This document shows positions 1 to 37,655 of a stretch of DNA of 37,655 nt, in pieces (the stretch's first letter is position 1; the number at the start of each line of letters is the position of its first letter). Source of the stretch: Lasiodiplodia sp. COLG20 (Eukaryota > Ascomycota > Dothideomycetes > Botryosphaeriales > Botryosphaeriaceae); NCBI GenBank assembly GCA_009801085.1, contig VNWV01000062.1, positions 1 to 37,655 on the forward strand. The letters run 5' to 3'. Position numbers and translations under genes: made by a program. The notes below the pieces were generated by a model that made no database searches, was not told the origin of the DNA, and saw nothing but the letters and a program-made list of their open reading frames with translations.

Positions 1-216
1 CAGATCTATAGTCCCCTCTTGCAGCCGATGGCTAGCGTAGATTTATTTTCTGCTCATACCATACGTAGTTGAAGCGTAGTTGAAGCTGTCGTCCGGATGA
101 GAATGTATAATTAAAAATTCGACATTCTCGTCCGGACGATAGCTTCAACTACGTATGGTATGAGCAGAAAATAAATCTACGCTAGCCATCGGCTGCAAGA
201 GGGGACTATAGATCTG
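1..216. mobile_element. Foldback MITE-like element, copy 1 (near-perfect palindrome)
   Basis: Bases 1-106 and 122-216 are inverted copies around an AT-rich loop. They differ by two mismatches and one 11-nt tandem duplication (GTAGTTGAAGC twice, in the left arm). The outer 30 bp of each arm begin TAGTCCCCTCTTGCAGCC and end in GGCTAGCG, and the same ends recur at 3624 and 6782. The element proper lies inside a TA duplication, as in Tc1/mariner-type non-autonomous elements. Symmetry continues six bases past the TA on both sides, which fits insertion into the palindromic target CAGATC-TA-GATCTG. No transposase is present. The superfamily call is inference from the TA target and terminal repeats. 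Confidence 0.8.
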
Positions 217-307
217 CTAAGGGTCTTTCTGAGGACACTGATATCCACGGGATCAACGACGTCAGCAGCCATAACAGTGGCTCCATTGTTTCTTTGTAAA
301 ATACTGC

Positions 308-2595
308 TCATCTGAATCTCAGTGCATTCCACACTTCTGGCGATGTATATTGGGTAATGGGGAAAGTGTCGTCAGTGGACATATGTGGACCAACATTTTC
401 CGCGCTGTCCCATGCAGAGACAAATGCACCACAGTCTGAGGAGCTTCTTAATCTTCCACCTTCATCCCTTTCCCAACGATGCGTATTTCCCTCAGCTAAT
501 GCCGAAAGCATAACCTCCTCCAACAAAGGTGGTGGAGGTTTCAGTTTCGGGTGGGCTGAGTCCTCCAGGTCAATCACAGCAAGTCGATCTCGCCATTCGG
601 TGATTGGAACGCTTCCGTCGCAACACTTCCATGGCCCGACTCCGAGTTCCTCGTGCGCCAGACGCTGGAGTTGAAGGGTTTCGTTCATAGTCCATTCAAA
701 GCGGGTGTGGACATCCAGACCATGTCGATGTTGTATCCAGCAAGCAAGAGGCCCCAGCACGTAGGACAGCGTAATGATCAGGCCACCAACGATGAAGACA
801 ACGGCGAGCCCGAAGACTGAGAAATTTGTGTAAGCGGTGCTTCGTATCATCTAGACAGTTGTCAGCATTTCACTCTTATAATTCAGTGTTTCTGGTTGTT
901 CACACCTGACTCTTGCACAGGCGCTTCACTCTGTCGTTGGGCGGCGGTGATAGCAACTCGCGCATTGCGGTATCAACAGTTCCGGTTGCTGTGTCGATGA
1001 ATAGTTGTTGAAGCCTCGCCATTGCTATGTTAAGCCATTTCTCGACATCCAACTGCCACTGATTATTTGCAATTGGGCCCTGGAAAAAGGTTGCTCTTCG
1101 AGAGCTGGACTCCAGTGACAGTTTCCTCAAAATCTCTAACACGGACGAAACACTAGTCTCCCATCTTACCGCAAGCTCGTAATTCCAGTGTGCTGCCTCG
1201 AGGTCGGCCATATCTTGCCACAGTACCGAGGTGATACTACGATTGTCAGACGGAAAGAACTGCGTGCAATATTTCCCTGGAGGCAGATTTGGATTGCATA
1301 GCTGAGATCTCTCCAAGCATCCTAAAGGGGATGCAGGCTCATTGCTCTGATAAAACTGAAAATCAAAACCGTCTGTATCGTCGCCGGTGTACGGGGAATT
1401 CGCGGAGTACCAAATATCACTCGAATTTTCCGCAAAGATGACCCCGTTCGTAGAGAGGAAAACAATGATCACTCTTGAATCCTCGATTTTCAACTCATCG
1501 ATTGGCTGAAAGTTTGAATCGTCAGACCAGGAGCCATTTAGGTATCTGCTGGCATCCAGGGCACTACAAAAATACCATTAGCGGTACAGCTTAAACAAAA
1601 AAAACCTCCTCGACTGACTGTAAAGTAAAATCCGGAGCATCTCCGAAGAGATCGAGCCAGGACGTTCCAATTGGGTATTGGTATGTATAGTTGTTTTCAC
1701 CAGTATTTCCGTAGAAATACTGCATTACGCTTTCTTTCCGGCTGCCATTGGCGTACACCAGGGTTTCGTTTCGGGAGTAACCCTCTGTCATCAACGGAGC
1801 ACAATGCAGCAAGCGCCTGTAAAGGAAGCGTCCATCTTGAGGCGTGTTGAGACCCATATCTTCTCGACTGTCGATGAAGCCAGTGTCAATAAGAAGGTTG
1901 GAGTCTTGGCTTTTGCAGATTTTAGGGTCGAATGGACAAGCTGCGGCTTGGTTCGCTTTCGTGTGGATGTTTCTTCTTACAAACTTCCTACAACCAACTT
2001 CATTGAATTTCTCCGAATAGCACTGCTTTGCATAATTGGCGCTCGAAGAAATGGCTCCAGAGAGATGCGGAATGTATCTCAAAAGTAGGGCGGCCATGTC
2101 AAGGTCGCTCTTATAACCGGATAAGGGAACCTTGCTGCAGCCATTTCCTGCGAGAAGTACTTGGGTCTCGTCAGCACTCAAAATTCGAGACGAAAAAGTG
2201 CTGGCTAGAGCGAAGGCGATTATGGTGATCGATGCGAGAACGATTGGCGGTATAATCCGGCGGTAAGGATTTTTCGCAGTTTTGCGCCATGCATATAAAA
2301 TTTGGCAGAAGCTCCATAGGCCAGTAGTTCCGTTTGCTGCATTCCGCAAAATTGCTTGTCGTTGGTGGTATAGCCCATCGCGAGGGGCGCCTGTCGAATA
2401 GACACAGTGGACAATGAAACATCCGATCCTCCAAAATCTGGTGCCAACGATAGCGACGAAGAGGGATATAAAAGCAATGAGTAAGCTTCCATGAGTGCGC
2501 GTTGTCGTCAAGGTAGCGCCAAACAACCTCCCATCCGCCCAATTTGTCCAGACTCCTGTATAGATGCTGCTGTCGTACTCTGGCAAAGAAGCCAT
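308..2595 (-). CDS. Fungal-specific membrane protein with large ectodomain, unknown function
   Basis: Proposed join of 2595-1619, 1563-906 and 850-308 gives 725 aa. The two introns are 55 nt each (donors GTCAGT and GTGTGA, acceptors GTAG and CTAG). The start at 2595 has a good context (gccATGgc). Membrane segments are predicted at about residues 38-56 and 115-137, with a third at about 557-577. Between TM2 and TM3 lies a Cys- and N-glycosylation-site-rich domain that should face outside, and the C-terminal tail is about 150 residues. This layout is common in families of uncharacterised Pezizomycotina proteins, often expanded and poorly conserved. Function is unknown. The stop lies about 95 bp from foldback element 1. 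An alternative first donor is GTTTTT at the GAG-GAG codons, but it gives an early stop. Confidence 0.75.
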
Positions 2596-3621
2596 GGCGC
2601 GTTCCGTTAGAAGGACTTCAAATGACTCTGCTCCGTTCGTGTTATCACAAGTTGCCGGTTGGCTGTCGCTAGCACGAGCGACGATGGGTTTGGCAGTCTC
2701 TTCATGTTAGGTTGTCTAGAATAGCCTTGTTATTTTCAAGATGATGAAATTGTTAAGATAGGCTTGCTTCATGTGCATGATTCAAGCCACATCACATAGT
2801 ATTGTTGCCTGAGCTTTTGCCATGTCCGCGTTTCCAGCTATTTGGCAACAAATGAACCACTATAATGTTGGCGATGTTGCTGCAAGGCTCAAGGCCATCA
2901 CTCTCTACATTTCCAAAACAGTAAATGGTGTATATCAGCAGCTGATTCTGCGTTCATGCAAGAAGATGTTTTCGTGAAAAAGGGTCTAAAGGCTCACATC
3001 AGCGTGGCCCAGGTATGTTGGATGCAGCTGGTTTGCACCCAGCCAACCGGGGCTCAGGCTTGGTTCCTACGACAACGTAAGCAGCTGAAATGCAGGAAGT
3101 GAGGAGCTGAGCTATCACTCCTCCTTTCAAAAAACATGTGAATTCAGAGTATATTCGATATGCAAGGATGTAGATCCAGTAAGCATACTGCGGATTGAGG
3201 CGTTCAGTGATTCTATATCTTCCTGTCGTTGTGACAGCCAGTTTGCGCACCAAATGCTGACAGGCTGATTAACTCAAAATGGCTTTGGAAGCCTGCAATG
3301 ATCTCGACGACAGTTGTAGTGCAAGGCTGAAGATAGCCGCTCTCTTACCACGCACGCCGGCGGCCCCTATTAATGGAAACCCCCCTAAAGTTGCCGACGA
3401 TAGACGCCATCAGTCCGACGGAGTAGTGGTAGACGTAACGTCTAGTCACGCACGCCGGGGGCATTACGTGTGTCCAGTTCTAGTCAGTCAGTGCTGGTAC
3501 ACCATGCCGCGTGTACGCCAGCTAACTCCCGAAAGGGCCAGCGCCTCAAACGTGACCTCCAACGCCTGTCCACCAGAGCGTTAGCAAAAGATCGACCGGG
3601 TCGGCCTGTCGTGTGGGAATT
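2596..3621. other. Intergenic, no supported gene
   Basis: About 1 kb between the divergently placed membrane-protein start and foldback element 2. Short open frames here lack family resemblance or splice continuity. Visible local structure: a near-palindrome TAGACGTaACGTCTA at about 3430 and two copies of CACGCACGCCGG about 100 bp apart (3350 and 3448). The first few hundred bases presumably hold the promoter of the gene ending at 2595. Confidence 0.5.
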
Positions 3622-3912
3622 TATAGTCCCCTCTTGCAGCCGATGGCTAGCGTGGATTCTTGCTCATGTCATGGGTAGTTGAAGCTACTGTCCGGACGTC
3701 AATGTTTAATTATTAATTCGACGTTTACATCCGGACGATAGCTTCAGCTACCCATATTTATATTTTTTTTTTAAAAAAAAAAGGACAGAGGCATACCTAC
3801 GCTATGTTTTTTTTCTAAGGGGAAAAAAGAAGAGAAGAGAATTGTGAGGCATAGTTACGCCTGGGACCTTACTATTCTTCATGCTAGCCGTCGGCTGCGA
3901 TAACCCCCTGTA
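3622..3912. mobile_element. Foldback MITE-like element, copy 2, upstream of SAS2-like gene
   Basis: The left end reads TA then TAGTCCCCTCTTGCAGCC, running to GGCTAGCG. The right end is the inverted, diverged form (GCTAGCC..GGCTGCGATAACCCCCTG) followed by TA, giving a TA duplication at both borders and an element of about 287 bp. Inside, 3671-3755 forms the family hairpin: GTAGTTGAAGCTACTGTCC pairs with GGACGATAGCTTCAGCTAC across the loop TTTAATTATTAATTCG. After the hairpin comes a run of T then A, and two near-repeats of GAGGCATAnnTACGC at about 3788 and 3848. There is no coding capacity. Confidence 0.75.
3671..3755. repeat. Conserved hairpin core inside foldback copy 2
   Basis: Inverted repeat of about 35-bp arms around an AT-rich loop. 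The same arm sequence recurs at about 57-165 (within copy 1), 6855-6942, 6991-7040 (one arm only) and 37596-37655 (one arm, cut by the window end). The hairpin core is better conserved between copies than the sequence between it and the element ends. Confidence 0.8.
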
Positions 3913-4166
3913 GCGAGTCTTCGGTACAAAAAGATGGTCAACGGAAGACAAAATTCAATGATGAGGTTGATGGAGGTGGTGAGGAGCTGCGACGGCTGGG
4001 AACCCCGCACGGGCGGCAGCCAGAGCACGCGTTCGCCGAACTTGGCGCTTCCGGCGCGACGTGCGCAACCTCACAGCACGAGAAGCGCCAGGCCGCAGCC
4101 AAACACGATGTGATTGCGAGCGACGGAGGGGGCCAGAAAACACGTCCACGACCCGCGTCGCCCCCC

Positions 4167-5481
4167 ATGGGCCCCGAAACCGCCTCCCGACCGGGCGCGA
4201 GCCCCAATGGTGCGCCGCCGCCCGGCGACACCACCGCAGCTGCCGCCGCAACGACCATGACCGTACCCACGCCGACCATGGCCACTGCTGTGCCGCCATC
4301 CGCACCCCAGCCGCAATCGGCCACCAAGCAGGACCCGCGCCCGCAGCCGCAGCAACAGCAGCGGCCCGCCGCCATGGAGCCCAACGTGCTGAACGTCGTG
4401 CTGGGCGACCTGCTCGTCAAGCCCTGGTACCCGTCCTTCTACCCGGAGGAGCTGGTCGGCCGCCGCGTCGAGCGCCTGTACGTGTGCCAGTGGTGCTTCA
4501 AGTACTCGAAGGAGCTGATTCCCTTCCTCGGCCACACGGTCCGCCCTTCCATACAACCCTTTTTTGCGTGCGGCTGAGGAGGCTGATGCGCGTAAGCAGA
4601 AGGTGTGCAGCCTCAAGGACGCCCCACCGCCGGGCACCAGAATCTACGCCAAGGACTGCTACTCGATACACGAGGTCGACGGCGAGGAGCACAAGGTGCG
4701 TGTGTCGATCCTTCCAAAGCGCCACCGCATGCCAATATTGCTGACGCCCCCACGCCCAGCTCTACTCGCAGAATCTGTCCCTGTTCGGGAAGCTGTTCCT
4801 CGACACCAAATCCGTCTTTTACGATGTCACCACCTTTCTGTACTACTTGCTCGTCAACACCAACCCCATGACCGGATCGCGCCAGGTCATTGGCTTCTTC
4901 AGCAAAGAGAAGATGAGCTGGGACAACAATAATTTGGCCTGCATTCTGGTCTTCCCGCCGTGGCAGAGGCAAGGTCTGGGGCAGATGTTGATGGGCGTGA
5001 GCTACGAATTGAGCCGGCGAGAAGGACGCATTGGCGGTCCGGAAAAGCGTGAGTATCAACTTTACTCATTCCTCCTCTTATTTCCCTTTTTCGCGTACTG
5101 GGTCAAGGTCTAACGGTCTTGGCAGCCCTTTCGGAGCTTGGCCGTCGTGGCTACACGGCGTACTGGTCTGCTACAATCGCAAGGTACATCTTGTCCGTTC
5201 CGATGAAGCGCAACGTCACGTTACGCGATGTCAGCGCCGCAACATACATCCTACTGGAGGATATCGTTACCACGCTCAAGGAGATGAAGGTGTTAGAGCA
5301 TCGACCGAACACCAACAAAAAGTCCAATTCGGCCCCTGACGAAGTCCCTGTTCTCAACAAGGCCAAGGTGCGGAGGTGGGCGCTGGAAAATGGCGTCGCC
5401 CTGGTGCCGCCTGTCGACGCAAATGCGTTAACCGTGGAGTGGACGGCGCGGGACAGGAGGGAGGATGCCGGAGGTGACTAG
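4167..5481 (+). CDS. SAS2: MYST-family histone acetyltransferase, SAS2-like
   Basis: Proposed join of 4167-4538, 4600-4695, 4760-5048 and 5126-5481 gives 370 aa. Residues 1 to about 70 are Pro/Ala/Gln-rich and disordered. The MYST C2HC zinc finger is C107, C110, H123, C127. The acetyl-CoA loop is QRQGLG (225-230). The conserved active-site Cys is C217, the catalytic-base Glu is E251 (in GPEKPLSELG), and the auto-acetylated Lys equivalent is K173 (LFLDTK). No chromodomain or tudor-knot is present, which argues for SAS2 rather than ESA1. Yeast Sas2 acetylates H4K16 in SAS-I and limits spreading of silent chromatin; that role here is inferred by family. The first intron has a weak donor (GTCCGC). 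ATG 4167 is the first ATG in frame. Foldback element 2 ends about 255 bp upstream. Confidence 0.82.
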
Positions 5482-5928
5482 AAAAAAAAAAAGCTTGCAT
5501 TAGGTGTTCTTGCGTCTATTTTAGAGGGGGCTCCGTGGCGTGGGAATCTGTTTTTTGATAATATACCCCGGGCATAGAAGGTACGTCGAGCACTGCATGC
5601 GAGGCTACACACAGCCTCGTGCGTTAATATAATGATGGTGTCAACCGTCAGTTTTAAAGAAACTTAACAAAACGGTGATGCGGAGCTACGTGGACGCCTT
5701 TCCACCTCCTTATCTATTTTGTTGTTTTTCAGCGAACAGCCCCACCGTATGCTGTCGTATACGTGGCTCAGGTTCGCTTTAATCTTTGATTCAATGCCTG
5801 ATGCCGCATCGTGCATTTGCTAATATTCTTAAATTGCTTATATATTAATGGTTAGTTTTGAAATAAAAATCACTTGAGAAATCAACTTCAGAGTATCAAT
5901 ACAATCACCACCAGAGAAGGTCATCACA
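5482..5928. other. AT-rich intergenic region
   Basis: It starts with an A-run right after the SAS2-like stop and holds that gene's 3' end plus the promoter of the next gene. No open frame of interest and no repeat of the foldback family seen. Confidence 0.5.
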
Positions 5929-6801
5929 ATGACAGAAACCCTCGCCAATCTCTTCGCCCGCCTCTCCGGCCTCCTCCCGCAATCCGTATCCGACCAGGCA
6001 TCCAAGATGTTCGTCAAGCGGCTGCTCAAACACTTCTTCGACCGCCTCGAGGAACTCTTGGCTCAGATGTGCTGGGCCGCGCTGGCCGGACTTTTCCAGG
6101 CTTTCTGGTTGCTGGTGTTTCAAAACGTGGCGGGGAGAGCTGCTTCTGCCGTTACTTCTGCCGCTACATCGCCCGCGCCGTCGAGCAAGAGGAGTTCGCG
6201 GGCTTCCTCGACACCACCCGCTGCTGCTGCCGCTGCCGCTCCTGATATCGAGGGACCAGGTTGTGCTTCTTCAACGGGAATTGATTCATTGGCCCCCACC
6301 GCGCCGAGTGCTGATGCAAAGCATGTGTTGAATCAATGCTTGGACTGCGCTGCGAGGCCTGCAGACGCTTTGGGCACTGAAGATACAACGGCGAGTACGC
6401 AGGAGGCGAGGAACAAGGAAAAGATGCCAGCTAAGCTACCTTCTCCTTACAGTCGTGGCAGCGGTCACAGCGGAGATGGTGAGGCGAGCAGGAGGTCTAT
6501 GAGTCCTGAAACACTGAGCAAACACCTCAGTTCAGCTTTTGATCGCTCAGTAGCGGAAAGTAAGGTGAAGGAAAAGGCAATCTTGAAGGAGATCGGGACT
6601 AGAATGGACCTGATTCAAGACTTGGTGACAGCCCATAAGCGATTGGTGGATAGGAGGCTTGCATTCGAGGGTGGTTCTATCAGCCTTAAATGGAGCAGGA
6701 AGTTCGAAAATTTGAGAGAGTTACGGGACGAGGAGCGGCGCAGGGGCATGAGCGAGGGGTCAGTAGTGGAGGGGGGAAGTACAGCCCCCTCTCGCAGCTG
6801 A
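5929..6801 (+). CDS. Hypothetical protein, C-terminus encoded by foldback element 3
   Basis: Single exon of 290 aa starting at ATG 5929 (cacaATGac). Residues 1 to about 70 are amphipathic and hydrophobic, rich in Leu/Phe, and may bind membrane or a partner. The middle is Ala/Ser/Pro-rich and disordered. Residues of about 200-275 are charged and helix-prone. I recognise no family. The last six codons (Thr-Ala-Pro-Ser-Arg-Ser) and the TGA stop lie inside the left terminal repeat of the transposable element starting at 6780, so the original C-terminus was different or longer. Whether the product is still functional is unknown. No intron is needed. Confidence 0.5.
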   Translation: MTETLANLFARLSGLLPQSVSDQASKMFVKRLLKHFFDRLEELLAQMCWAALAGLFQAFWLLVFQNVAGRAASAVTSAATSPAPSSKRSSRASSTPPAAAAAAAPDIEGPGCASSTGIDSLAPTAPSADAKHVLNQCLDCAARPADALGTEDTTASTQEARNKEKMPAKLPSPYSRGSGHSGDGEASRRSMSPETLSKHLSSAFDRSVAESKVKEKAILKEIGTRMDLIQDLVTAHKRLVDRRLAFEGGSISLKWSRKFENLRELRDEERRRGMSEGSVVEGGSTAPSRS

Positions 6802-6854
6802 TGGCTAGCACGAAGAATAGCAGGGCTCCCCAGCTCTGCCTAAAAAATAACATA

Positions 6855-6942
6855 CATGGGTAGCTGAAGCTATCGTCTGAACGAGAATGTCGAATTTTTA
6901 ATTCTACATACACGTCCGGACGAGAGCTTCAGCTACTTATGG
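6855..6942. repeat. Hairpin core of foldback copy 3
   Basis: CATGGGTAGCTGAAGCTATC at the left pairs with the inverted GAGAGCTTCAGCTACTTATG at the right, around a loop containing CGAATTTTTAATTC. Several mismatches show the copy is older than copy 1. Confidence 0.7.
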
Positions 6943-6990
6943 TATGTGCCCTTTTCTATCTTTCAATTTTTTTTTCCATACGAATAACGA

Positions 6991-7040
6991 CATATGTGGG
7001 TAGTTGAAGCTATCGTCCGGACGCGAATGTATAATTATTT
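6991..7040. repeat. Solitary arm of the foldback hairpin
   Basis: It reads CATATGTGGGTAGTTGAAGC, then TATCGTCCGGACGCGAATGT and the loop start ATAATTATT, but the complementary arm is missing. The arm is very close to that at 37596-37655. Confidence 0.7.
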
Positions 7041-7195
7041 GTTTGCGCGTTGGTGATATGGGTGCTAGCTTAATTGCTGGATGCTGGATAGAGTATGCTT
7101 CGCGATAGCTGACCGTCTCGAATGTGCGAGCGTCCGTGATGGTAGGGTGATGCTCGCTGTTTCACGTAGAGGCGGGTAAGCTTTTCCAGATTCTC

Positions 7196-7776
7196 CTAGA
7201 TCTTGTCCTGCGAGACTTCCCCGAGGTTGCCATATATATCACGGGCCTCGATTAGCGACACCTGGACGCCGTACAAGTGTTCCAGAATGCCTTTAACGGT
7301 CTCGGCATCCTCGGGGATGTTGACTACTCGGTCGGTGCCGACCTTCTTGTCGAGGTATCAGCATTGCGCTCACGGTGAGAGAGTGTCAACCTACAACGAA
7401 GCCTCGGCTGCAGCAGTGGTTGAAAAAGGTATTGCGCTCACAGACACTACGGGACGAACTCAGGTCAGCATGCGCAATCCTTCAAAAGCGTCCGCACAAG
7501 AGTGACATACATGGCGCGGTGAGCCTTGATTATGACATCGCCATCACAAACGATGGTGAGGTCGGCCCAATACTTGCTTTTGTAGAGGCCAAACTTCATC
7601 TTAGCTGCGCGTGCCAGAGAGTATCGATGGGAGCTACTTACCGTTGGCAGATTTCTCCCATAGTTTGCGCTTGAGAGCCCTGCGAGGGGCGATCGCGCCC
7701 CATACCTTTCGTCGTCACGCTGCTTGCGGCCGTGGCGTGCGATGGTGTGGAGGGTATGGAGGGTATGGAGGTTCAT
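7196..7776 (-). pseudogene. BTB/POZ-domain gene, truncated by an in-frame stop
   Basis: Proposed join of 7776-7511, 7446-7395 and 7345-7196 gives 155 aa. Intron 1 is 64 nt (GTATGT, branch GCTGAC, GTAG) and intron 2 is 49 nt (GTAGGT, branch GCTGAT, AAG). Spliced, the protein reads across a BTB core: YWADLTIVCDGDVIIKAHRA, IVCERNTFFNHCCSRGF, then VVNIPEDAETVKGILEHLYG. BTB domains mediate dimerisation or Cul3 adaptor binding. The TAG at 7198-7196 falls before the usual final helices, yet the same frame continues with ENLEKLTRLYV, as expected of an intact BTB end. I therefore read it as a nonsense-truncated copy. The N-terminus is uncertain: it carries a LHT triplet repeat from a 9-bp tandem repeat, and translation could begin at an internal Met just before the BTB core. 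Confidence 0.6.
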
Positions 7777-21906: not shown

Positions 21907-24093
21907 ATGGGCAAGCGCACGGCCAGCCAGGCTGGCATAGTCAAGTCCGGTGAGTTACTCCGCAAGGGCGGAAAAGCGCAAATCCGCGCCCGCGTGCGGA
22001 GCGGTCCGCCGCGCTGCAGCTGACGCCCGAGTTGGCCGGGCAGAACATGCGCGCGCAGCGATTCTCAGGGATCAAGAGCGCTAGCTACGTGTGCTGAACC
22101 AATGCTTACGGTCGACCCTCTACTTCAGGCAAGAAATCTGTCGCCGAGACTCCGAAGAAGCAAAAGACCGGCGACGCCACGGAATCGTCCACCCCGACTT
22201 CTGCCCCCGCCGCCTCCGGTTCCGCCGATCTCTCAAAGAAGGCAGAGAAGGCTCTTCGCAAGGAGGAAAAGGCCAAGGCCAAGGAGGAAAAGAAGAGGCT
22301 GAAGCGCGAGGCGAAGCTGGCCGCCGAGGCGAATGGCGTGAGCAGTGAAGACGTCGACATGATCGACGCTCCCACCACCTCCGAGGATGTGACCGAGCAG
22401 GAATCATCCAAAGAGAAGAAGGATAAGAAGGAGAAGAAACCCAAAAAGGACAAGTCGGAGAAGAAAGATAAGAAGGACAAGAAGGAGAAGAAGGACAAAT
22501 CCGAGAAGAAGGAGAAGAAGCAAAAGAAGGAGGCTGGCAGCGCTGAGGATACGTCCGTCGAACCCGCGTCTGTTCCGGCGGTCAGCCGCACCGCGGCCGC
22601 AGCTGCGGAAGCGGCTCCGTCTGGCTATCTCGAGGATCCCGCGCTCTCTGCTCTGCCTCAGTCTGAGATTGATGCTTTCATGTCGAAGCACTTCATCGCC
22701 GTGACCGATCCCCTAAGCACTGCGACGAAGCTCCGCCCGATCGTTTCCTTCGACCATCTCCCCGTTACCGACGAGTCGCTGCGCGCTCCCTTTGCGAGCT
22801 TCACGGCACCCACTCCCATCCAGGCGGCAGCATGGCCCTCTCTGCTCTCTGGCAGGGATGTCATTGGCGTGGCTGAGACCGGTTCAGGAAAGACACTCGG
22901 TTTCGGTGTTCCCTGCGTCCGGCACATCATGTGCCAGCCCAAGAGCAAGGGTGTGAAGGCGGTCATCGTGTCTCCTACTCGCGAACTCGCTTCCCAGATC
23001 CATGAGCAGTTAGTCAAAATTGCGGAGCCCGCTGGCCTCAAGTCCGTCTGCATCTACGGCGGTGTTCCCAAGGACGAGCAGAAGATTGGGCTGAAGAAGG
23101 CGAGCATCGTCGTTGCCACCCCCGGTCGTCTGAATGACCTTATCGACGAGGGCGCCGCGGATATCAGCAAGGCCGACTACGTCGTTCTGGACGAGGCCGA
23201 CCGTATGCTCGACAAGGGTTTCGAAGATGCCATCCGTAAGATCATCAGCAGCACTCGCCCGCTTAACGAGCGTCAGACTCTCATGTTCACTGCCACCTGG
23301 CCCAAGTCCGTTCAGGAGCTCGCGTCCACCTTTATGAAGTCGCCCGTCAAGATCACCATTGGCGACAACCCGACCGGAGAGCTCCGTGCCAACACGCGCA
23401 TCAGCCAGACCGTTGAAGTTGTTGACCCGAGGGAGAAGGAGCAGAGACTCTTCCAACTCTTGAAGGAGCACACGGTGGGCAGCAAGAAGAATGACCGCAT
23501 TCTCATCTTTTGTCTGTACAAGAAGGAGGCCACGCGCGTGGAGGAGTCCATCCGTCGCAAGGGCTTCAGGGTTGGCGGTATCCACGGCGATCTCAGCCAG
23601 GTGCAGCGCACCGCCAGCTTGGAGAAGTTCAAGAAGGGCGAGATCCCTCTTCTGGTTGCCACGGACGTCGCGGCGAGAGGGTTGGACATTCCCGCCGTCA
23701 AGGTCGTCATCAACGTGACCTTCCCATTGACTGCAGAGGACTACGTCCACCGCATTGGCCGGTGAGTTACCATCGCGACCGGAACGACACACAGGTTACT
23801 GATACGAATTCGCAGAACGGGCCGCGCGGGACAGGACGGCAAAGCCATTACCCTCTTCACCGAGCATGACAAGGCGTTGGCTGGAGCGTAAGTCGCATTA
23901 TCCAATATTGTATTGATGCAAGCTAACGGATTCAAGGCTCGTCAACGTTCTCAAAGGTGCCAACCAGCCGGTTCCCGAGGATCTCATGAAATTCGGCACG
24001 ACCGTCAAGAAGAAGGGCCACGAGGCATACGGTGCCTTTTTCAAGGACACTACCGATATGAAGCAGGCGACCAAGATTACCTTTGACGACTGA
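21907..24093 (+). CDS. DBP3: DEAD-box ATP-dependent RNA helicase DBP3
   Basis: Proposed join of 21907-21949, 22129-23761, 23816-23887 and 23937-24093 gives 634 aa. The first exon encodes [15 protein letters not shown]. Residues of about 20-190 are Lys/Glu-rich ([14 protein letters not shown] runs), the usual charged N-terminus of Dbp3. The helicase core shows the Q motif ([13 protein letters not shown]), motif I AETGSGKT (263-270), PTRELA, TPGR, DEAD (369-372), motif III as TAT, ARGLD, and motif VI HRIGRTGRAG (555-564). The second intron splits motif VI between Arg and Thr. Dbp3 acts in the nucleolus in pre-rRNA processing at site A3 for the 60S subunit; this function is taken from the yeast family member. 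Intron 1 is 179 nt and the others are about 50 nt. Confidence 0.92.
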
Positions 24094-25041: not shown

Positions 25042-25470
25042 CTATCCGTGTTCAAGTTCTGGTGAGGAGGGAGAAAGTTGGAAGCGAGGGAGTGTTATTG
25101 ACGGGCGTTGTGCGAAAAGGTGGAGATTGCTCCGGCGAGGTGGCGTGAGCTAGGTGAGGGAGTGGAGTTTTTATATTACTCGTGTCGATGCGAGGGTGAT
25201 CACGCATTGCTTTTTGCCGTTAATATGGGAATCTTGAGAATCGATGTTGCTGTATGTATATGCTTGTCTCGGCGACCCCGTGGGTGCGTGCATGCAGGTT
25301 GCGCGCCGATGACGTCGTTGATGCGCGCCGGGGGGAGAACACCGCCGATTACGCAAATGGGAATGTCGTGCATCATCCCCAACTTCATGTTCTTCGAGCG
25401 TCAGGCTATCAAGTTGCGGCTTCGTTTCCTATTGTGTGCCCGAATTCATCATCGCAGACAATTCGCCAAG
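25042..25470. other. Intergenic between two Cys-motif genes
   Basis: No gene seen. It holds the 3' end of the mini-protein gene and the 5' region of the next. The reading frame of the next exon is open upstream to about 25108, but there is no reason to extend the protein: that stretch has no domain and ATG 25471 has a good context (aagATGag). Confidence 0.4.
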
Positions 25471-28220: not shown

Positions 28221-29447
<1,227 letters not shown>

Positions 29448-30077
29448 TTGATAGAGGGCCGATGCCGAAACGATAGCGCTTTACGTACACGAGAAATTCT
29501 TTCAACGGGCTGCCTGTGGCTAGTCATGTATGGGCGAATGGATTTGGGGGCCTTCATGATCCTAGTTCAGAGGGTCTGTTGTAGAGATGATGACAACGGG
29601 TTTCTTAACTCTTTACCTCTTCACTGCAGAAGACACGGATGTTTTTCTGACGATGGAGAGATTCTTTTCAAGATGCCTTCTAGGGTCTCGCATCATTGTC
29701 AGCGAGCGGTTGCAAAGCATTGCCTCAGAAGATAGGGATCTTCACATTGATTGTCAATGAAACTTGGATAGACTGCACCGGTAGACGTGATTTGAGTGTG
29801 TTTGTCGTTGGGGAGACGTGTTTATCGTTGTTTTGCTGGTATTAAACGACTGCTTAAATCGTACAAAGATATGCCGTTGCTCGTGCTGGTGTTAAACAGA
29901 CTACGAATATCTACCATACATTCGTCTAAACCATACATGTCTAGTTCGAGGGCTACAGAGGGCCGTCGTCTTCCTTTACCCAAACGCCATTTATGCATTC
30001 CATCCAGAGCAAATCTTTATAGAGGAGAGTGCCAGCCGCCCAGATGATACAAAGGAATTCGTCGCCATAAAAGGAAT
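29448..30077. other. Convergent 3' region of MAP kinase and ERV1
   Basis: About 630 bp between two stop codons facing each other. It is AT-richer than its surroundings, as expected of two terminators. A diverged direct repeat, TGCTGGTATTAAACGACT (about 29835) and TGCTGGTGTTAAACAGACT (about 29885), is visible. No gene supported. Confidence 0.45.
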
Positions 30078-30770
30078 TCAAGGATCGCACCTTCCGTCCT
30101 TCCAGCCCGTGTACCAGCGCTCCTCCCAGCGGTCGCAGTCGAACTTGTCCTTGCTCAGCTTGTCATTGACGGCGTTGTGGGCCTCGCACATCCAACGGCC
30201 GAACTCGTCGCGCGAGCTCACGCGCGGGGCGTTGCGGTCGTCCTCCAGCCAACGCTGGAAGTCCTCGGCGCAGGTCCAGCACGGGTACAGCTTGGCGAAC
30301 GTGTACATGAATCGGCGCGTGTCAGACTGCAGCTGCGGCGAGGGCCGCGCCGGGTAGTTGCCCGTGATGGAGTGCAGCAGCGTCCAGGACGAGCGGCCCA
30401 GCTGCTCGACGTCCGGGGGGCAGTCGCGTGGCGGTTGTTGGTCGGCGGCGCTTGCTGCGGCGAGGGCGGCGGCGGCGGTGGAGGTGGAGGTGGAAGCGCT
30501 GGAGCTGCTATTCTTGGTCTTTTCTTTGGCCATGGCGAACCACGAAGAGACGGACGTGCAGGTGCGGCAACTGCGAAGGTGGACATTGTGTGGTCAGCGA
30601 CTTGCCCGCGCGCGCACGCATGCACGCTGGTGGTTCACTCACGGCTTCCCGTCCGGGCCAAGCACTACGCCTTTCGGCAGCTTCTTGGACGCGTCCGCGC
30701 CGGCCTGGGTGTCATCGTTGCTGGTGTTGGAGCCCCGGGGAAGGGACGTGTCGAGTGGTTGCGCCGGCAT
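30078..30770 (-). CDS. ERV1: FAD-linked sulfhydryl oxidase ERV1
   Basis: Proposed join of 30770-30643 and 30570-30078 gives 206 aa. The 72-nt intron (GTGAGT/GCAG) falls just before the shuttle motif. The N-terminus KKLPKGVVLGPDGKP runs into C44-R-T-C47, the flexible shuttle disulfide. Then comes a low-complexity Ser/Thr/Ala linker (about 62-85) and the Erv/ALR domain: DCPPDVEQLGRSSWTLLHSI, catalytic C140-W-T-C143, FAD-binding CEAHNAVN, structural C171 and C188, and the terminal WEERWYTGWKDGRC. The enzyme reoxidises Mia40 in the mitochondrial intermembrane space and passes electrons to cytochrome c. Function is from the family. ATG 30770 is chosen because it directly precedes the conserved start; an in-frame upstream ATG at about 30840 would add 23 residues. 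It is divergent from HEM4. Confidence 0.93.
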
Positions 30771-31176
30771 GCCTGTTCTGGACTCTACGACACACAGGAA
30801 TTGGGAGAGGATGGGGACCTCGAGAGAGGTCACAGGCATGGCAAGGAAAGAAGGAAAAAGAAGAATATTTGTAAGAAAGTCGCCCGATTTGATCCAAGAG
30901 AGCAGGCACCCGGCTGTCCGTGCTTCCCGGGCAGTCGTCGTCCTCTCTGCGCGCGCGCAGACGGACCGGGGTTGCCCTTGCGGAATGACGCCCGCTGCCG
31001 GGTGCTGCCGAGCAAGATCAGAGCTGAGAAAGCTGTGAGCGCAGCTTGGCGCTGGGGTTGTTGGCGGGTTTTCTCTCTCCCACGACACATGGTCGCGCGG
31101 GGTCGCTCTTTTTCTTCGTTGCTCAAGGCTGGACTGGGAGGATTATGCCTCTGTCCCTCTTTTGCGTCCCTTCACC
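30771..31176. promoter_or_regulatory. Divergent ERV1-HEM4 promoter region
   Basis: About 406 bp between the two start codons, transcribed outward in both directions. There is no third gene. It contains a GCGCGCGCAGACGG stretch at about 30949 and a CT-rich run just before the HEM4 start. I see no defined heme- or iron-regulator site. Confidence 0.5.
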
Positions 31177-32202
31177 ATGAGCGTTTCTTCGAGTGCTACC
31201 GCCGCCGCCGCCGCCGCCTTCAATGCCGCTGCCCCGTCCGACCGCAAGGTTCCCGTCGTGCTACTCAAGACCAAGTCGACGCCGACGGATGGCTACGAAG
31301 AGTTCTTTGCCGCCGCGGGCGACGGCCGCTACGACCCGGTCTTCGTCCCCGTCCTCGAGCACCGCTTCCGGGCCGACGCGCTGAAGCAATTGCGCGCCGA
31401 CATTGCGCACGGCGGCTTCACAGGCGCGCAGCACGCCAAGTACGGCGCCATCATCTTCACGTCGCAGCGCGCTGTCGAGGCCTTCACGCAGGTGGTGCAG
31501 GACCTGCGGCGCGAGGGCGGCGCCCAGCAGCAGCACGACATGGACGCGCTGCTGCCCGCCTCGCTGCCGCTCTACGTCGTCGGCCCCGCGACGGCGCGGG
31601 GCCTGCGCGCGCTGGGCCTGCAGTGTCCCATCCTCGGCGAGGAGAGCGGCAACGGCGAGGTGCTGGCGAAGATCATACTGGACGACTACAACCGGCGGGT
31701 GCCACCACCACCGGCGCTCGGCGGCGCCGGCGGCAAGAGGAAGGCGGGCCTGCTCGAAAAGCTGCCCATCCTGTTCCTCGTCGGCGAGCAGCGCCGCGAC
31801 ATCATCCCCAAGACGCTGCAGGCGCCGGACCTGCCGGCCGAGCGCTACACGGCCGTTGACGAGGTCGTCGTCTACGAGACGGCCGAGATGCAGTCGTTCC
31901 GCCAGGACTTTGCGGCCGTCGTCGCGGGCAACCGGCAGGCGGGCGCGGAGCAGCAGTGGGTCGTCGTCTTCTCGCCCACGGGCGGGAAAGCAATGCTAGA
32001 GACGCTGGGGAAGGGGGAGGGCAGCGCGAAAACACCGCTGGAGGAGGGCGGGCTCAGGACGTGCATCGCGACGATTGGACCGACGACGAGAGATTACCTC
32101 GTGAAGTGCGGGTACGAGCCGGATGTGTGCGCGAAGAAGCCGAGCCCCGAGGGTGTGGGGAACGGCATTGAAGACTTTATGCATGGGTTTGCCGCCAATT
32201 GA
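31177..32202 (+). CDS. HEM4: Uroporphyrinogen-III synthase HEM4
   Basis: Single exon, 341 aa. The start is ATG 31177 (tcaccATGag); the frame is open a few codons upstream but has no ATG there. The enzyme cyclises hydroxymethylbilane with D-ring inversion to uroporphyrinogen III, the fourth step of heme synthesis, in the cytosol. Visible family signatures: VVLLKTKSTPTDGY at the N-terminus, VPVLEHRF, YGAIIFTSQRAVEAF, LYVVGPATARGLRALG, LPILFLVGEQRRDIIP, VVVYET and WVVVFSPTGGKAML, then IATIGPTTRDYLVKCGYEPDVCAKKPSPEG. The length is somewhat above yeast Hem4 because of an Ala-rich start and an inserted PPPPALGGAGGKRKAG loop. GC content and codon bias are very high, producing long false frames on both strands. 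Confidence 0.92.
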   Translation: MSVSSSATAAAAAAFNAAAPSDRKVPVVLLKTKSTPTDGYEEFFAAAGDGRYDPVFVPVLEHRFRADALKQLRADIAHGGFTGAQHAKYGAIIFTSQRAVEAFTQVVQDLRREGGAQQQHDMDALLPASLPLYVVGPATARGLRALGLQCPILGEESGNGEVLAKIILDDYNRRVPPPPALGGAGGKRKAGLLEKLPILFLVGEQRRDIIPKTLQAPDLPAERYTAVDEVVVYETAEMQSFRQDFAAVVAGNRQAGAEQQWVVVFSPTGGKAMLETLGKGEGSAKTPLEEGGLRTCIATIGPTTRDYLVKCGYEPDVCAKKPSPEGVGNGIEDFMHGFAAN

Positions 32203-32793
32203 CGACTGAAGACGGGCAGGTTGCCAGGAACAGGTACCCGGGGACATTCGCATCACTTCCGCAAGTATATGATACCTATTGACGGTCATGAGGACCGGAA
32301 AAAGAGAAGATTTTCATAGACAAATTAGGATAGGTTACGCAAATTACGCGATTACGGCCTTTTGCACATCTCCAAGTCCAGGTTTGTTGAGGGTGATGGT
32401 AGCAGAGCGGGGTTTGGACGGGCCAGCCACTTCGCTCGAATCCCGCCATCCGTGAGCTGCGCATCTAGACTTTGCATGAGCACTCACGTGCAAGCATGTA
32501 CGATGCATTCGACATGGCTAGAGGCTGGCTGGAACCAGCAGGCGCCCGAGACGCGGGAAGACGCGTTGCGATTGGATGACGTCAGTGACGCGCTGGAGCT
32601 AAAACGGCGCGTCACGGTACAGCTCCTCTTTAGCAGCTCCAACCGCTTGCGCTCTACCAACTTTCCTCTACGTCCCTCACAACTCTGTCAATCGCATTGC
32701 CTCATCGCAGTGCAGCTTCTGGAAGCTTCATTTCATCGTCACCGCGCGATTGAGCCGAGCATCAACCCCCACACACTTCGAATTTCTGTCAAT
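32203..32793. other. HEM4 3' region and promoter of the following gene
   Basis: About 590 bp. TGACGTCA-like TGACGTCAGTGACG at 32578 is a candidate bZIP/CRE-type site, about 200 bp before the next ATG. A CT-rich tract follows. The next gene's frame is open upstream to 32362, but the stretch lacks protein-like features. Confidence 0.45.
32578..32591. promoter_or_regulatory. CRE-like TGACGTCA site
   Basis: TGACGTCA is the palindromic consensus for CREB/ATF-type bZIP factors, followed by a second TGACG half site. It lies about 205 bp upstream of the proposed start at 32794. The match is exact, but function is inference. Confidence 0.4.
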
Positions 32794-34134
32794 ATGGTTT
32801 CCTCCACCAGGCAGTCTGCTCGTCTCGCCGAAAAGGGCGACAACGAGCCGACGGTCGAGCAGGAGCAGACATCGCCCAAGGGTACCAAGCGTAAGGCCGA
32901 TGCGGCTTCACCCACCAAGGGCCGTGGCGCAAAGAAAGCCGAGCCCGAGAAGAAGCAAAAGACTCTGGAAGAAACCATTGAAGGTACCGGTGCTCCCGAC
33001 GATATCGATATGATCGAGGCGGGCAAGGCAGTCGAAGGCATTGAGAAGAAGGCCGAGAGCAAGGGTGAGGAGGCGGATCAGAACGGCAAACAGGTCTCGG
33101 ATGAGAAAGAAGTTGCCAAACAGGCGGGTGAGGCACCGGGCTCCACCGAAACGGGCAAGTACCCATCGAGTAGCAGTGAATGGATCCCAACTGACGGTCG
33201 ACTACAGGTGGTGCTGTCAAGGAAGACACCGAACGCGAGCAAAATGTCCCCACCAGCATTGTTGAAAAGGGTGTCATCTACTTCTTTACCCGCAAGCGCG
33301 TGGGAATCAAAGATGCCGAAGGCCCGGAGGACCTGCAGCGGACATACTTTGTCCTTCGGCCTGTTCCCAAAGGTACCAAGCTTGAAGCTGCACCGATCGA
33401 GGATAGCGAGAACAATAGGCTGTTCGCGCTTCCGAAAAAGGTATTCCCGAAGAGCCACAGCGATAGGTTCATGGCATTCGCCGAGAAGGGCAAGACCACC
33501 ATCAAAGATCTCAAGGAGACTTTCTTCGCGGGAGCCACCCACGAGACAAAGACTCAGGGCACTCGCGAGGTTCCTCCAACAACTCCGATTGGCGAGGGTG
33601 TCTACGCAATCACGGACACCGGAAAGAGCTCCCATCTTGCCTACATGCTCACGATTCCGACTGAGATCGGTGATGTCCAGAAGGAACTGGGTCTCCGGAA
33701 CCAGGGCAGTTTCGTCATGAGTGTCAAGAACCCGGAGAGAAAGGGACCTGCCAGCGCCCAGCTCCCGCAGGGCCCCAATTTCCCGAAGGAGTAGGTGTCA
33801 TTTCTCTCGAGCTGAATGCAGTCAAACTGACCCGTTCTGTAGGATTATTGAGGAGTTCCGTGGCCTTGCTTGGGTGTCGGCGAAGCCGCAATACCTGAGT
33901 TACGACAACGTTCAGATCCTGCTCATCGGAGAGGGCACGGATGACAGTTTCGGACACGCGCTCGATCCCAAATCCAAGGACCAGAGGGAGGGCAAGGAAG
34001 AGCCGCGGGAGGAGCTAGAGAAGCTGGAGCATGAGGATGAGCTGCGGGTCGAGCACCTTCACGGCAACGACACGGTCTTCGATGACTTGAAGCTCAGCAA
34101 GAACGAGTATCCCCAGATTCCCACCACTTGGTAA
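32794..34134 (+). CDS. Conserved fungal protein of unknown function, likely nuclear
   Basis: Proposed join of 32794-33127, 33208-33790 and 33843-34134 gives 402 aa. Intron 1 (80 nt) uses GTGAGG and CTACAG, which keeps frame; the more obvious AAGTACCC donor does not. Residues 1-110 are disordered and basic/acidic (TKRKADAASPTKGRGAKK), an NLS-like region. From about 112 on is a conserved domain: VEKGVIYFFTRKRVG, DLQRTYFVLRPVPKGTKLEA, NNRLFALPKKVFPKSHSDRF, KTTIKDLKETFFAG and GEGVYAITDTGKSSHLAYML. The last exon adds EFRGLAWVSAKPQYLSYDN and an acidic tail. Relatives in other ascomycetes are, to my knowledge, hypothetical or loosely labelled BTB transcription factor; I see no BTB fold. No enzyme motif is visible. 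Confidence 0.8.
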
Positions 34135-35376
34135 ACGACCAAGTTCTCTGCGCGCTCTACCACCGTGTTCACGGAGTTGAGCTAGCACTCTATGAACAAC
34201 CGTCCATAGGAGCTGGTTACCGAGACTCGATTGCTTAAACCGGCGTTTAACGGGAGGATCAAAAAAGAAAAAAGCTCACCTCATCTGAGCTGAAGCCCCG
34301 CAAGCATTTCAAAGCTATGTGGGTACATGAAGTCGAACCTTTGAATTCTCGACAAAAAAAAATACGGCAGCCATAGCTCACTCGACAGAATATAAAACAA
34401 AAATGGTTAATATCACGTTATGCGGATGCTCTGTGCGTGAGTTTTTGCTTTACGAGGAAAGTGGAGAAGAACTGGGGAACCCGCATATCGCATGTGACTT
34501 TGATTTCCTGTTTCGGCAATGCGACAAGCACTCCTTGCTTACGCTTAAAGTGATGAGTTGCATGGCATGCGAGAGACGATGGGCGGATCGAATGATCGCA
34601 GCAAGTGGGCGTGCAATCGACGCATGTGAAGCGGCGTTTCGTGCGTGCTACGCCGTTGCACCGTTCGGACAGCCACAGGACGGTACGAATACGGGCAAGT
34701 GTCAGCCGTCAGCTCGAAGGAGGGTGGCATCGCAACTGAGGGCTGTTGCACTCCTGAAGTCGGAGTTTTTTGCGAAGGGCGGTGGTTACAGGCGGCGTAA
34801 ATCCCTTCACATGGAGACTAAATACTAATGGAGACCCCAAGGCGGGAAGCCCGAACCACAGTTGAGCGTGGATTGGCTGAAGATCGGGAGGCCGGGGGCC
34901 AATCGGATAGGATGGCGGTAACTGTTTCGAAGAAAATCAAGCAGGGATGACGTGGCAGGGGAGTCACGGTCGCAAGCCTGAACAGTCAGTTGCCATCGAG
35001 ACAGAGACAGTCGCAAGCCATGAGACATCAGAGGGTCTGGAGCTCTAGATTGTGGCTGGTTCGGTATCTGCATACCGACGACAGGGAGATCGACATCGGG
35101 AATCCCGGTCGACCTACGCTTTTTAGATTGGCACGCGGAGGGGGGTTCCTGTTTCCATCGTTGGGAGATTTCCTTTCCTGTACAGCTCAACCACAGCAAG
35201 CTGCCGGCTTACGCAGCCCGGGGCGTTTTTCGACGAGCTGGACGCAACGCTGCGTATACCAGTGGCCTCAGGCGCTACTCAGCACTAAATAAGCGGATCC
35301 CTCGTATCCCGCGCACGTGTTGGCTATATATATCTTTAGCCCGCGTAAGCCCGGGCGCGCACCCATCCGCTCCATC
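34135..35376. other. Intergenic, no supported gene
   Basis: About 1.24 kb. The left part has A-rich runs (34260, 34355) typical of a terminator region. A 141-codon frame from ATG 34403 is discussed under rejected items. The right end has a TATATATATC stretch at about 35326, 50 bp before the next start, which may act as a TATA element. Confidence 0.4.
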
Positions 35377-36584
35377 ATGTTCAAACCACAGACGAAGTCG
35401 GAGTGGGCCTTTCTGGGCACCACGGCCACTCAAGCGGGCGTGAATACCGCGATCCAGCTGTCAGTCCGGGAGCCCCGTCCTTTGAGTCCTGTTCTCACCG
35501 CTCTGCAGCTATGTCCTGGACCGTTATCTGCGGTGGGTGAACCCGAACGTCTATCAGGTCGCGCGATCATACACGATTCCCGTCACCTTTGCCATCTTCG
35601 TCTTCGGCGTCGTCTACCAGTTTTTGCTGGCGTGGGACTCGCTCCGCAGCAAAAACAACATCCAGCTGTTCGCACAGGCCGTCTGCAATGTCTGCCTCTT
35701 CATATCAGCCGTCCTGCAGTACGAGCAGGTCAAGGACGTGGTGCATGGACTGCCGCCGAACCACGATGCGCAGGACAAGCCGCTGGTCAAGCTGGACGTC
35801 GACATATGGGCCCAGATCCACCCCGCCTTGATCGCCTTCATCGCCGTCTTTGCCGCCTGCAGCGTGGCCATGTGCGGTCTAGCCTACAAACTCCACAAAC
35901 AGTTTGCCTGGGCCTTGTATAAGGACATCAACGCCGACACGAGCCTGAGGACTCGGTATCTGATTTATCAGGTAACACTATCCGGACCTTCCGTCGGACT
36001 CTCGTGCTCACTTCCTCCAGATATTCTTAGTCCTGATGAAACTGTCCTTTTACTTCCTCGTGTCTTTCGTCATCATCTACGGTTTCGTGGATGTGCACTA
36101 TGAACAACCCGAGTTCGCCCTCACCATGGCCATCATCCCGGTGGCCATGCTCCAGATCCTCCTCTCAGCCTTTGCAGCAAGGCACGAGAACAGATTCTTC
36201 ATGTTAATCTCCATTGTAAGTATGGATCTGATACAAACGTGACAAGACACACTGACACGCATCCTTCAGTTGGTATACGCCGGAGGCGTGGCCTACCTGG
36301 TCAGCCGGATCATCCTCCTCGTCGGCGACGGCCCGCGCTCGATGACGATCATGAAGGACGAAATGATGTTCTTCGCCGTCGTGTCGCTGATCCTCATCGC
36401 CTCTAGCCTCGTCGCGTCCATCCTGTGCATGATCAACTTCGGCCACGGCCTGAAGCCGCACCTGCTCGGCATGACGGCCAAGAAGGCGCCGCAGGACCCG
36501 GAAGATGCGTATCGATTCGAAAGGCTGTCTCACGCCGCTCCTCCGCCCGAGTTCCTCTCCCCTCGCCGCTTCGCCTTGGATTGA
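35377..36584 (+). CDS. Seven-TM membrane protein, UPF0658-like
   Basis: Proposed join of 35377-35459, 35509-35971, 36021-36215 and 36270-36584 gives 351 aa. All introns are about 49-54 nt with GTCAGT, GTAACA and GTAAGT donors. Seven hydrophobic segments are visible: YTIPVTFAIFVFGVVYQFLL, LFAQAVCNVCLFISAVL, LIAFIAVFAACSVAMCGLAY, KLSFYFLVSFVIIYGFV, TMAIIPVAMLQILLSAFAA, ISILVYAGGVAYLVSRIILL and FFAVVSLILIASSLVASIL. The start MFKPQTKSEWAFLGTTATQA and the WDSLRSKNNIQLFAQ loop resemble UPF0658 proteins, assigned to the Golgi membrane in fission yeast. Function is unknown. The short C-terminal tail (KAPQDPEDAYRFERL) is likely cytosolic. The family call is from memory of the pattern. Confidence 0.75.
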
Positions 36585-36709
36585 ACCCGACAAACGCCAT
36601 CTTAACATAGGACTTGACACCTTATTACTCCCAGCCCTTTCCTCATCTCACGCCGGTCCTCCTCATTCCTCCTCCTCCACCTTCTTCTCCCCCCTCCTCT
36701 TCTTCCCCC

Positions 36710-37136
36710 TCAAATGCACCGGCCTCTGCTCATCCCCGGCTCCACGCACCGCTCCAACGGAACATCACGGCCGTCTGCACCACGGTACCCGGCTTCTATC
36801 TGCGCCATCTGCTCGGCGTCGTACACCCCCGTCGCGCGGAAAGCGGCGACGTGCTCGGCGATCTGCGCGGGCGACAGCGCCCGGTGGTCGAGCACGGTAC
36901 CATCGCCAGAGTAACTGCGTAGGATTCCGTCGCTGCCCAGGTGCAGGCACCCCGCCCCGGTTGGGTCTTTTTTGAGCGTTCGGCCGGGTGAGGGGAGGCG
37001 GACGCAGGAGGAGCAGGAGGGGGAAGTGGTGGTGGTGGGGGCGGAAGGCTGAGGGTTGATGTTAGTTTTGGATGGAGATGGAGGAGGAGGAGGAGAAGGA
37101 GGAGGATCGGGACTGGTTGCGTACTTGGTCGGACAT
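36710..37136 (-). CDS. Small hypothetical protein with 12-nt first exon
   Basis: Proposed join of 37136-37125 and 37048-36710 gives 116 aa. The first exon encodes only Met-Ser-Asp-Gln. The intron (76 nt) has donor GTACGC, a perfect AACTAAC branch site and acceptor CCTCAG. This reading restores an ATG start, whereas the continuous frame has none. The product begins with a Ser/Thr/Pro/Cys-rich segment (SPSCSSCVRLPSPGR) and then a compact region: GCLHLGSDGILRSYSGDGTV, LDHRALSPAQIAEHVAAF, GVYDAEQMAQIEAGYRGADG, and RCVEPG at the end. I do not recognise the family. The 3' end lies 125 bp from the end of the oppositely directed UPF0658-like gene. Confidence 0.6.
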
Positions 37137-37594
37137 GGCGGTTGGCTCACTACTTTCCAAGGTGGTTTTCTCTCTTGCTTGTTGTCCTTTTCAGGGCTTG
37201 AAGGGGCGGCTTGAAGCGTCTTTATGAGAGGACGAGTGGGTGGGGGCGCCTGCTGACACCTTGGAGATCGTCGAAGGATTCGCCTGACATTCCATCAGGC
37301 AGCAGCAGCTTTGTCGATGTGGATGCAAAGCATGGAGACTCTCATTGGTAGATACAGTGGGTGACCATGATTCAGCTCTGCCAGAACTTTCCTTCGAATA
37401 TATGGGAAGTCATCCAATGTCTGGGTGGATTCGCACAATTTCAAGCTCACATTTATGTCGGATATGTGCTTCGTAGGAACAGGAGAACTCGAATCTTCTA
37501 CAATTGTGATGCCTTGCTGAATCGTTGATAAACTCAGCAAGAGAGCGGCCTTTATTGCAGAGTGCAAAGCGCACGCCAAAAATAAAAATAAAGA
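37137..37594. other. Interval before the terminal foldback arm
   Basis: About 460 bp. It should hold the promoter of the small protein gene ending at 36710. An open minus-strand frame (37600-37295) begins with a hydrophobic stretch but starts at the border of the foldback repeat and has no support. Confidence 0.35.
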
Positions 37595-37655
37595 CAACAT
37601 ATGGGTAGTTGAAGCTATCGTCCGGACGTGTATGTACAGTTATTAATTCGACATT
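37595..37655. mobile_element. Foldback family copy 4, cut off by the window end
   Basis: It reads ACATATGGGTAGTTGAAGC, then TATCGTCCGGACGTGTATGT and the loop GTTATTAATTCGACATT. The arm matches the left arm of the other hairpins, and the window stops at the first bases after the loop, so the other arm would lie just outside. No outer terminus of the family is seen to its left, like the solitary arm at 6991. Confidence 0.75.

Follow-up and report, generated by a model that had tools for sequence, protein, structure and literature searches.

We analysed a window comprising the whole of contig VNWV01000062.1 (37,655 nucleotides; C59 in our numbering) from the 43.5-Mb, 88-contig genome assembly of Lasiodiplodia sp. 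COLG20. It contains copies of a short transposon-like element of the miniature inverted-repeat transposable element (MITE) kind, which has two unlike halves, here called A and B, and a 77-bp hairpin between them. The orientation of this hairpin relative to the two halves, which differs among copies in the genome, is the subject of our analysis. A search of the window at up to three mismatches located eight hairpin arms (chance mean 0.00), and three element ends were found (chance mean 0.04). An earlier note on this DNA had described four locations carrying the same unit. Units 1 and 2 are indeed two-ended, but unit 3 has one recognisable end, no right end having been recognised for it, and the hairpin of unit 4 is cut by the end of the contig (Table 1). 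The two arms reported as occurring alone also had different fates: the one following the complete hairpin of unit 3 is real, whereas the one at 37605 is part of the truncated hairpin of unit 4. The end sequence quoted at the time, TAGTCCCCTCTTGCAGCC, is a repeated end, but it represents a local variant found in exact form only three times in the genome, all of them in this contig.

Table 1. Copies of the hairpin element and their parts in the window (positions in the window;., no strand assigned; U, orientation unclear)
Feature	Position	Strand	Remarks
Unit 1, B-B palindrome at contig start	1..216	.	Element 9-208; TA 7-8 and 209-210
Unit 1 hairpin, 77 b	76..152	.	DNA fold -33.6 kcal/mol, z -14.5
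Unit 2, 287 b, B end left, A half right	3624..3910	-	TA 3622-3623 and 3911-3912
Unit 2 hairpin	3675..3751	.	Orientation state U
Unit 3, A end at 6782, full hairpin, half hairpin 140 b further	6782..7049	+	TA 6780-6781
Unit 3 hairpin, complete	6860..6936	.	Arm search, fold
Single hairpin arm, partner arm missing	7000..7023	+	Arm search
Unit 4, hairpin cut by end of contig C59	37587..37655	+	Arm 37605-37628; direct reading

The outer arms of unit 1 (1-75 and 142-216, 75 nt each) are 100% complementary, including 8 b of flank. Because this perfect palindrome sits at the contig start and takes in those 8 b, its left half could have been created by a fold-back during assembly. A B-B palindrome resembling unit 1, with 52 b of inverted flank on each side, is present at C45:199665 (locus L075) and lies inside a 3.2-Mb contig, so that such B-B events can be real, although a fold-back in assembly is the likely origin of unit 1. 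The orientation of the unit 2 hairpin is unreadable because its inner stem has diverged. A mechanically called open reading frame (5929-6801) ends within unit 3, with its last residues, TAPSRS, and its stop codon contributed by the MITE end at 6781-6801, so that a gene may owe its end to the element.

We searched the entire genome with the arm and end sequences. Exact 19-base hairpin arms occur 294 times, and arms with at most 3 mismatches in 24 bases 1559 times. Type-1 ends (TACAGYCCCCTCTYGCAGCCGATGGCTAGCG) were found 382 times at up to 3 mismatches in 31 bases and type-2 ends (TACAGAGGGGTRYTGCAGCCGAWGGCTAGCG) 250 times at up to 3 mismatches, while the reversed-pattern controls gave 0 in all four cases. 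The genome search proposed in the earlier note thus returned abundant copies. Following the TA, the family end reads CAG[T/C]CCCCTCT[C/T]GCAGCC. Type-1 ends are paired as terminal inverted repeats in 50 elements. TA is found on both sides in 40 of these 50, as expected from the description of the family as TA-flanked and MITE-like, and a longer duplication in 0 of the 40. In the usual layout, TA and the A end are followed by an A spacer of variable length, the 77-bp hairpin, a B spacer with CATGACATGAGCAAAAAACAAATCC, the B end and a second TA. The halves A and B are unlike each other, the spacers are unequal, and the ends measure about 29 b. The element is short, non-coding and present in many copies: 49 of the 50 two-ended elements span 196-241 b, the remaining one is 145 b long, and unit 2 of the window measures 287 b. 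It is a TA-type MITE family of the ordinary kind. No match in print was found for it when the arm and end strings and the topics of MITEs, hairpins and inversion were searched in the open-access literature.

Several copies depart from this layout. The 145-b element starting at C1:6967633 has no hairpin, its B side CATGTCATGGGTA joining directly to the A side TGTGTTAATT; as part of the hairpin edge is retained, it reads as a deletion and not as an empty site. In the two half-hairpin copies that we read (C1:6970572 and C1:8183303), the missing half corresponds to a deletion beginning at the hairpin centre. Double-hairpin copies are located at C1:7596768, C1:8375122, C2:1094269 and at 6860 in the window, with the hairpins 135-142 b apart and the spacers partly alike, the window copy consisting of one hairpin and one half hairpin. 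These copies perhaps form a subfamily of their own. Elements with two unlike termini are found at three loci (L031, L036 and L038), where an end of the CAGTCCCC type is combined with one that belongs to, or resembles, the CAGAGGGG type. Unit 2 of the window likewise has unlike termini, its right end resembling the second terminal type. The two-termini elements look as if two families had recombined via a common inner part.

A Tc1/mariner transposase with the same terminal repeats, as sought in the earlier note, was not found at the eight transposase loci examined, five of which match DDE_1 (L070-L074) and three DDE_3 (L075-L077). The 29-base type-1 end is absent from the fetched flanks of all eight at up to 7 mismatches, and only weak 18-base end matches, with 4 mismatches each, are present at L073, L075 and L076. 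Hairpin arms are found only at L075, apart from one 7-mismatch arm at L076. At L075 (C45:197433-200777), one hairpin element with type-2-like ends is located beside, not around, a transposase relic. Some 0.33 kb separate the B-B palindrome of this locus from a Tc1-like (DDE_3) transposase match, which contains five stop codons. L071 and L072, both DDE_1 loci, have other inverted ends. The Tc1-like element at L076 (C88:711370-712818) is bounded by perfect inverted ends of 47 bp and has an open transposase frame of 426 aa; its ends are unrelated to those of the MITE. None of L070-L077 thus offered a convincing family end in the flanks searched. A search with PF01359 (Transposase_1) gave no match in the genome and none in the controls either, and is therefore uninformative.

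The inner stem of the hairpin is asymmetric, with TGTATGTAG on one side and AGAATGTCG on the opposite side, which allows the direction of the hairpin with respect to A and B to be determined. The sample comprised 153 hairpins from 150 segments, one of them the window, with a total length of 285,812 b. We counted the 62 with standard spacing, recognisable A and B halves and both ends, leaving out those with other spacing (14 of the 153) or with no recognised half or end. Among these 62 full-type copies the hairpin is forward (F) in 40, inverted (R) in 17 and unclear (U) in 5; the corresponding numbers in a subset of 38 copies sampled by their ends are 26, 10 and 2. The best pair consists of the inverted copy at C1:4536254 and the forward copy at C1:6233656. 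Over 150 aligned flank positions the two show 2 differences, besides indels, the largest of which is in the A spacer, and their hairpins, private arm variants included, are identical at 77 of 77 positions when one is inverted and at 60 of 77 when compared directly. The inverted stretch in this comparison is bounded by inverted repeats. In a second pair, C34:1057886 and C3:334774, the flanks differ at 3 of 140 positions, and the hairpins agree at 74 of 77 positions inverted and at 63 of 77 direct. The three central bases of the hairpin are AAA or TTT in both orientations (F/TTT 22, F/AAA 11, R/AAA 10 and R/TTT 6, of 62), which suggests that a smaller inversion is nested within the larger one.

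We next placed the orientations on a maximum-likelihood tree built from the flanks only. It requires 11 orientation changes (bootstrap 10-14; shuffled mean 14.9), a figure that rises to 13 once the unclear rows are dropped, and at least 3 changes are made unavoidable by the starred branches. The best tree that unites the inverted copies in a single clade was rejected by the approximately unbiased (AU) test (p=1.7e-30). By the flank tree and the one-clade test, hairpin inversion is recurrent, i.e. homoplastic. Orientation is partly inherited and partly changed repeatedly. The suggestion that the hairpin might be a recombination hot spot has accordingly gained support from its repeated inversion among the genome copies.

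Position 5 of the arm provides a marker for the extent of each inversion. Given in the order A arm, B arm, the commonest combinations in the 40 forward copies are T,G (14), C,T (13) and T,T (9); those of the 17 inverted copies are T,T (6), C,C (5), T,C (4), G,T (1) and C,T (1). In the inverted T,C and G,T copies the marker has moved together with the core, placing both switches outside position 5, while in the inverted C,T copy the marker has stayed, with both switches inside it. The C,C copies have arms matched at this position, and the T,T copies are uninformative. Matching bases at position 5 of the two arms are present in 11 of 17 R copies versus 11 of 40 F copies (Fisher 0.016, with the relatedness of copies ignored). 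Two individual copies fit copying from arm to arm: at C1:6127901, private arm changes have become matched and the flank is patched from the other half, and at C1:6465567 the inner stem is patched.

These observations are probably best explained by a TA-inserting MITE of Tc1/mariner type whose hairpin is a mutational hot spot and has been inverted repeatedly, template switching being the likeliest route. Copies would have spread by transposition into TA sites, with a transposase presumably acting in trans, and the hairpin would have been inverted in place relative to A and B many times as the family spread. The most likely mechanism is a template switch between the hairpin arms during replication or break repair. 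A polymerase would exit its template in one arm, copy the complementary strand of the hairpin and re-enter in the other arm, and the positions of the switches would decide whether the entire hairpin or the core alone is inverted. With unequal switch points, the intervening stretch would become a perfect match, so that moved, stayed and matched marker classes are all predicted. The switch points at the arm markers vary as template switching between the arms predicts.

We also addressed the conservation of the hairpin, which had been taken as evidence of selection. Mean pairwise identities in 36 copies chosen by their ends are 0.975 and 0.939 for the two ends, 0.879 for the outer arms, 0.909 for the inner arms, and 0.825 and 0.843 for the A and B spacers, the values for the ends being biased upward because the ends served for sampling, and those for the spacers being lowered because their A-runs align badly. 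The outer arms exceed the A spacer by 0.054 (bootstrap 0.022-0.077) and the B spacer by 0.036 (0.009-0.063). In a mixed sample of 39 full elements, ten-base blocks of the B spacer (0.905-0.947) overlap the hairpin blocks (0.79-0.96). The conservation of the hairpin thus exceeds that of the spacers slightly at most and falls short of that of the ends. In 24 hairpins selected via their ends and not via their arms, 9 changes affect both arms, with 8.7 expected under independent drift, and 73 are one-sided; compensatory stem changes are not above chance. An earlier set of 118 hairpins gave 20 cases of the same change in both arms, with 20.4 both-arm changes of any kind expected, and a summed arm difference as low in 149 of 5000 permutations, a version that is biased because most of its loci were picked by an exact arm. 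DNA folds of three window copies are strong (z -6.6 to -14.5), and a comparison of the window with Rfam gave no family at or above its gathering score. The arms drift independently and the excess in conservation is small; the hairpin is not kept by selection for pairing, and on this basis we discarded pairing selection and the proposed role as a small-RNA precursor.

Several points weigh against repeated inversion by template switching. Every comparison is made between different loci of one assembly, with no orthologous locus seen in both states. Four contig ends lie inside a hairpin element (C2, both ends of C59, and C60), and assembly trouble at hairpins thus exists. Among 45 contig ends examined, the element is located at these four, which were already known, and at 0 of the 41 others, so that any enrichment would be estimated with bias, the 45 ends being a minority of those of the 88 contigs; we infer that a shared edge of 7 b is too short for the usual assembler flip. 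Weak inner branches are common in the flank tree (6 of 59 starred, 31 open), and shuffles needing as few changes as observed are rare (8/500 (F) and 3/500 (R)), which reflects the inherited part of orientation. The position-5 test takes no account of relatedness, and a partner transposase with family ends was not found among the eight loci. A clean full inversion with a shared edge of about 7 b would also fit break repair or cruciform processing, and ectopic conversion by an inverted hairpin from another copy would look identical. Inversion by reciprocal arm recombination, cruciform cutting or ectopic conversion in place of template switching is possible, if doubtful. It would yield the same outcome for a clean full inversion that keeps both arm variants, and the 1559 arms in the genome offer numerous copies for ectopic conversion. 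According to passages of PMC8755829, template switching tends to perfect imperfect inverted repeats and does not readily account for inversions whose flanking repeats are very short or imperfect, and microhomology-mediated break-induced replication is proposed there instead; with imperfect arms kept and an edge of about 7 bases shared, that model fits the clean inversion at least equally well. Chloroplast inversions of 5-50 bp at inverted repeats of 11-24 bp are ascribed to recombination in a section of PMC12928735. The arms studied here, however, measure 24 b and the inverted segment 77 b, while the minimal homology for eukaryotic recombination is put at 50-250 bp in a passage of PMC8755829, and the matched C,C class (5 of 17 R copies) suits copying between arms. 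It is very improbable that the R copies represent one old subfamily without repeated inversion: they partly cluster on the flank tree, but a single R clade was rejected, and near-identical flanks bear opposite hairpins.

The remaining alternatives assign the hairpin a life of its own. The earlier note had suggested that it spreads separately, and it could be a separate mobile unit, either a nested minimal MITE or a captured hairpin, which also resides in the larger element. Among 71 fetched exact-arm hairpins on C1-C11, 43 have both halves, 10 have B only, 4 have A only, 1 is of B-B type, 1 is cut and 12 have no recognisable half or end. These end-less hairpins do not look older, as their arm divergence (1.73, 11 of the 12 measured) resembles that of complete ones (1.59, 41 of the 43 measured). 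Arms also exceed recognised ends (1559 versus 632, at unequal thresholds), 15 adjacent hairpin pairs are present among the 153 hairpins, and a few hairpins without recognised ends have TA directly outside GG...CC, with TA|GGTAG or TA|GGGAG at the left edge and CTACC|TA at the right one. Most solo copies, however, lack TA at the arm edge, and no consistent target duplication was found in the flanks read around them. No empty site was seen for a solo hairpin; the solo hairpin of L007 is situated some 80 b past an open frame, not within it. The hairpin-less element retains a hairpin edge, as expected for a deletion and not for an empty site, and the ends of solo hairpins may merely have decayed or been deleted. 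We thus consider a separate mobile unit unlikely, and it is decidedly unlikely that the hairpin is a self-standing unit that flips often in living cells and is also copied alone, with the MITE as its carrier. A functional RNA, such as a small-RNA precursor, or an otherwise selected sequence would account for the stable folds and for the small excess of the outer arms over the spacers, but the chance level of compensatory changes, the lack of an Rfam match in the window, and the existence of half hairpins and of one hairpin-less copy render this explanation highly unlikely.

Two protein-coding regions of the window were compared with known proteins. The DEAD-box protein encoded at 22338-23765 shares 98% identity with dbp3 of Lasiodiplodia theobromae, all others among the best 120 of 7996 matches being at or below 91%. 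One match of the protein encoded at 1591-2595 has 99% identity, and the organism-named matches listed, from Diplodia seriata and Macrophomina phaseolina, have 42-43%.

We compared the element to known transposon families. Foldback (FB) elements have long inverted arms that form most of the element. The present family resembles them in its overall inverted-repeat architecture, but it has short ends of about 29 b, unequal spacers, an internal hairpin at the centre and a TA target, and we thus excluded it from the FB group. Tc1/mariner-type MITEs are characterised by a TA target, short inverted ends, a length of about 0.2 kb and the absence of coding sequence. All of these features are present here, together with hundreds of ends. 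Unlike such MITEs, our family contains a central, asymmetric 77-bp hairpin that inverts, and the eight transposase loci examined yielded no partner with matching ends. None of the titles and abstract openings returned from the open-access literature describes internal hairpin flips in a MITE.

Small inversions at inverted repeats are known from chloroplasts and vertebrates, and their mechanism is disputed in the passages of PMC8755829, PMC3123225 and PMC12928735 that concern them. One genome here carries several hundred copies of the same hairpin, providing a record of hairpin rearrangement in the nucleus. With A and B as fixed outside markers and further markers within the arms, both inversions and switch points can be counted, and template switching, arm recombination and break repair may thus be distinguished in a eukaryotic nucleus. 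As a caution, consensus sequences and trees of MITEs that include such a hairpin mix two orientations. The human-chimpanzee microinversions treated in part of PMC8755829 are likewise clean and flanked by inverted repeats, with template switching or break repair under discussion, but they involve 17-33 nt at scattered loci and not one 77-bp hairpin in many copies. Recurrent, hairpin-linked small inversions in chloroplast DNA are described in sections of PMC12928735 (citing Kim and Lee 2005) and PMC3123225, the latter also reporting bird hot spots without stem-loops. Like our family, the chloroplast inversions as presented there combine recurrent, homoplastic flips with short inverted repeats, which measure 11-24 bp as against our 24 b. 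They span 5-50 bp in plastids, whereas the present hairpin comprises 77 bp, is nuclear and belongs to a dispersed transposon family, in which arm markers locate the switches. The flipping hairpin is a variation on this known theme and the part of interest, while the MITE family itself is ordinary.

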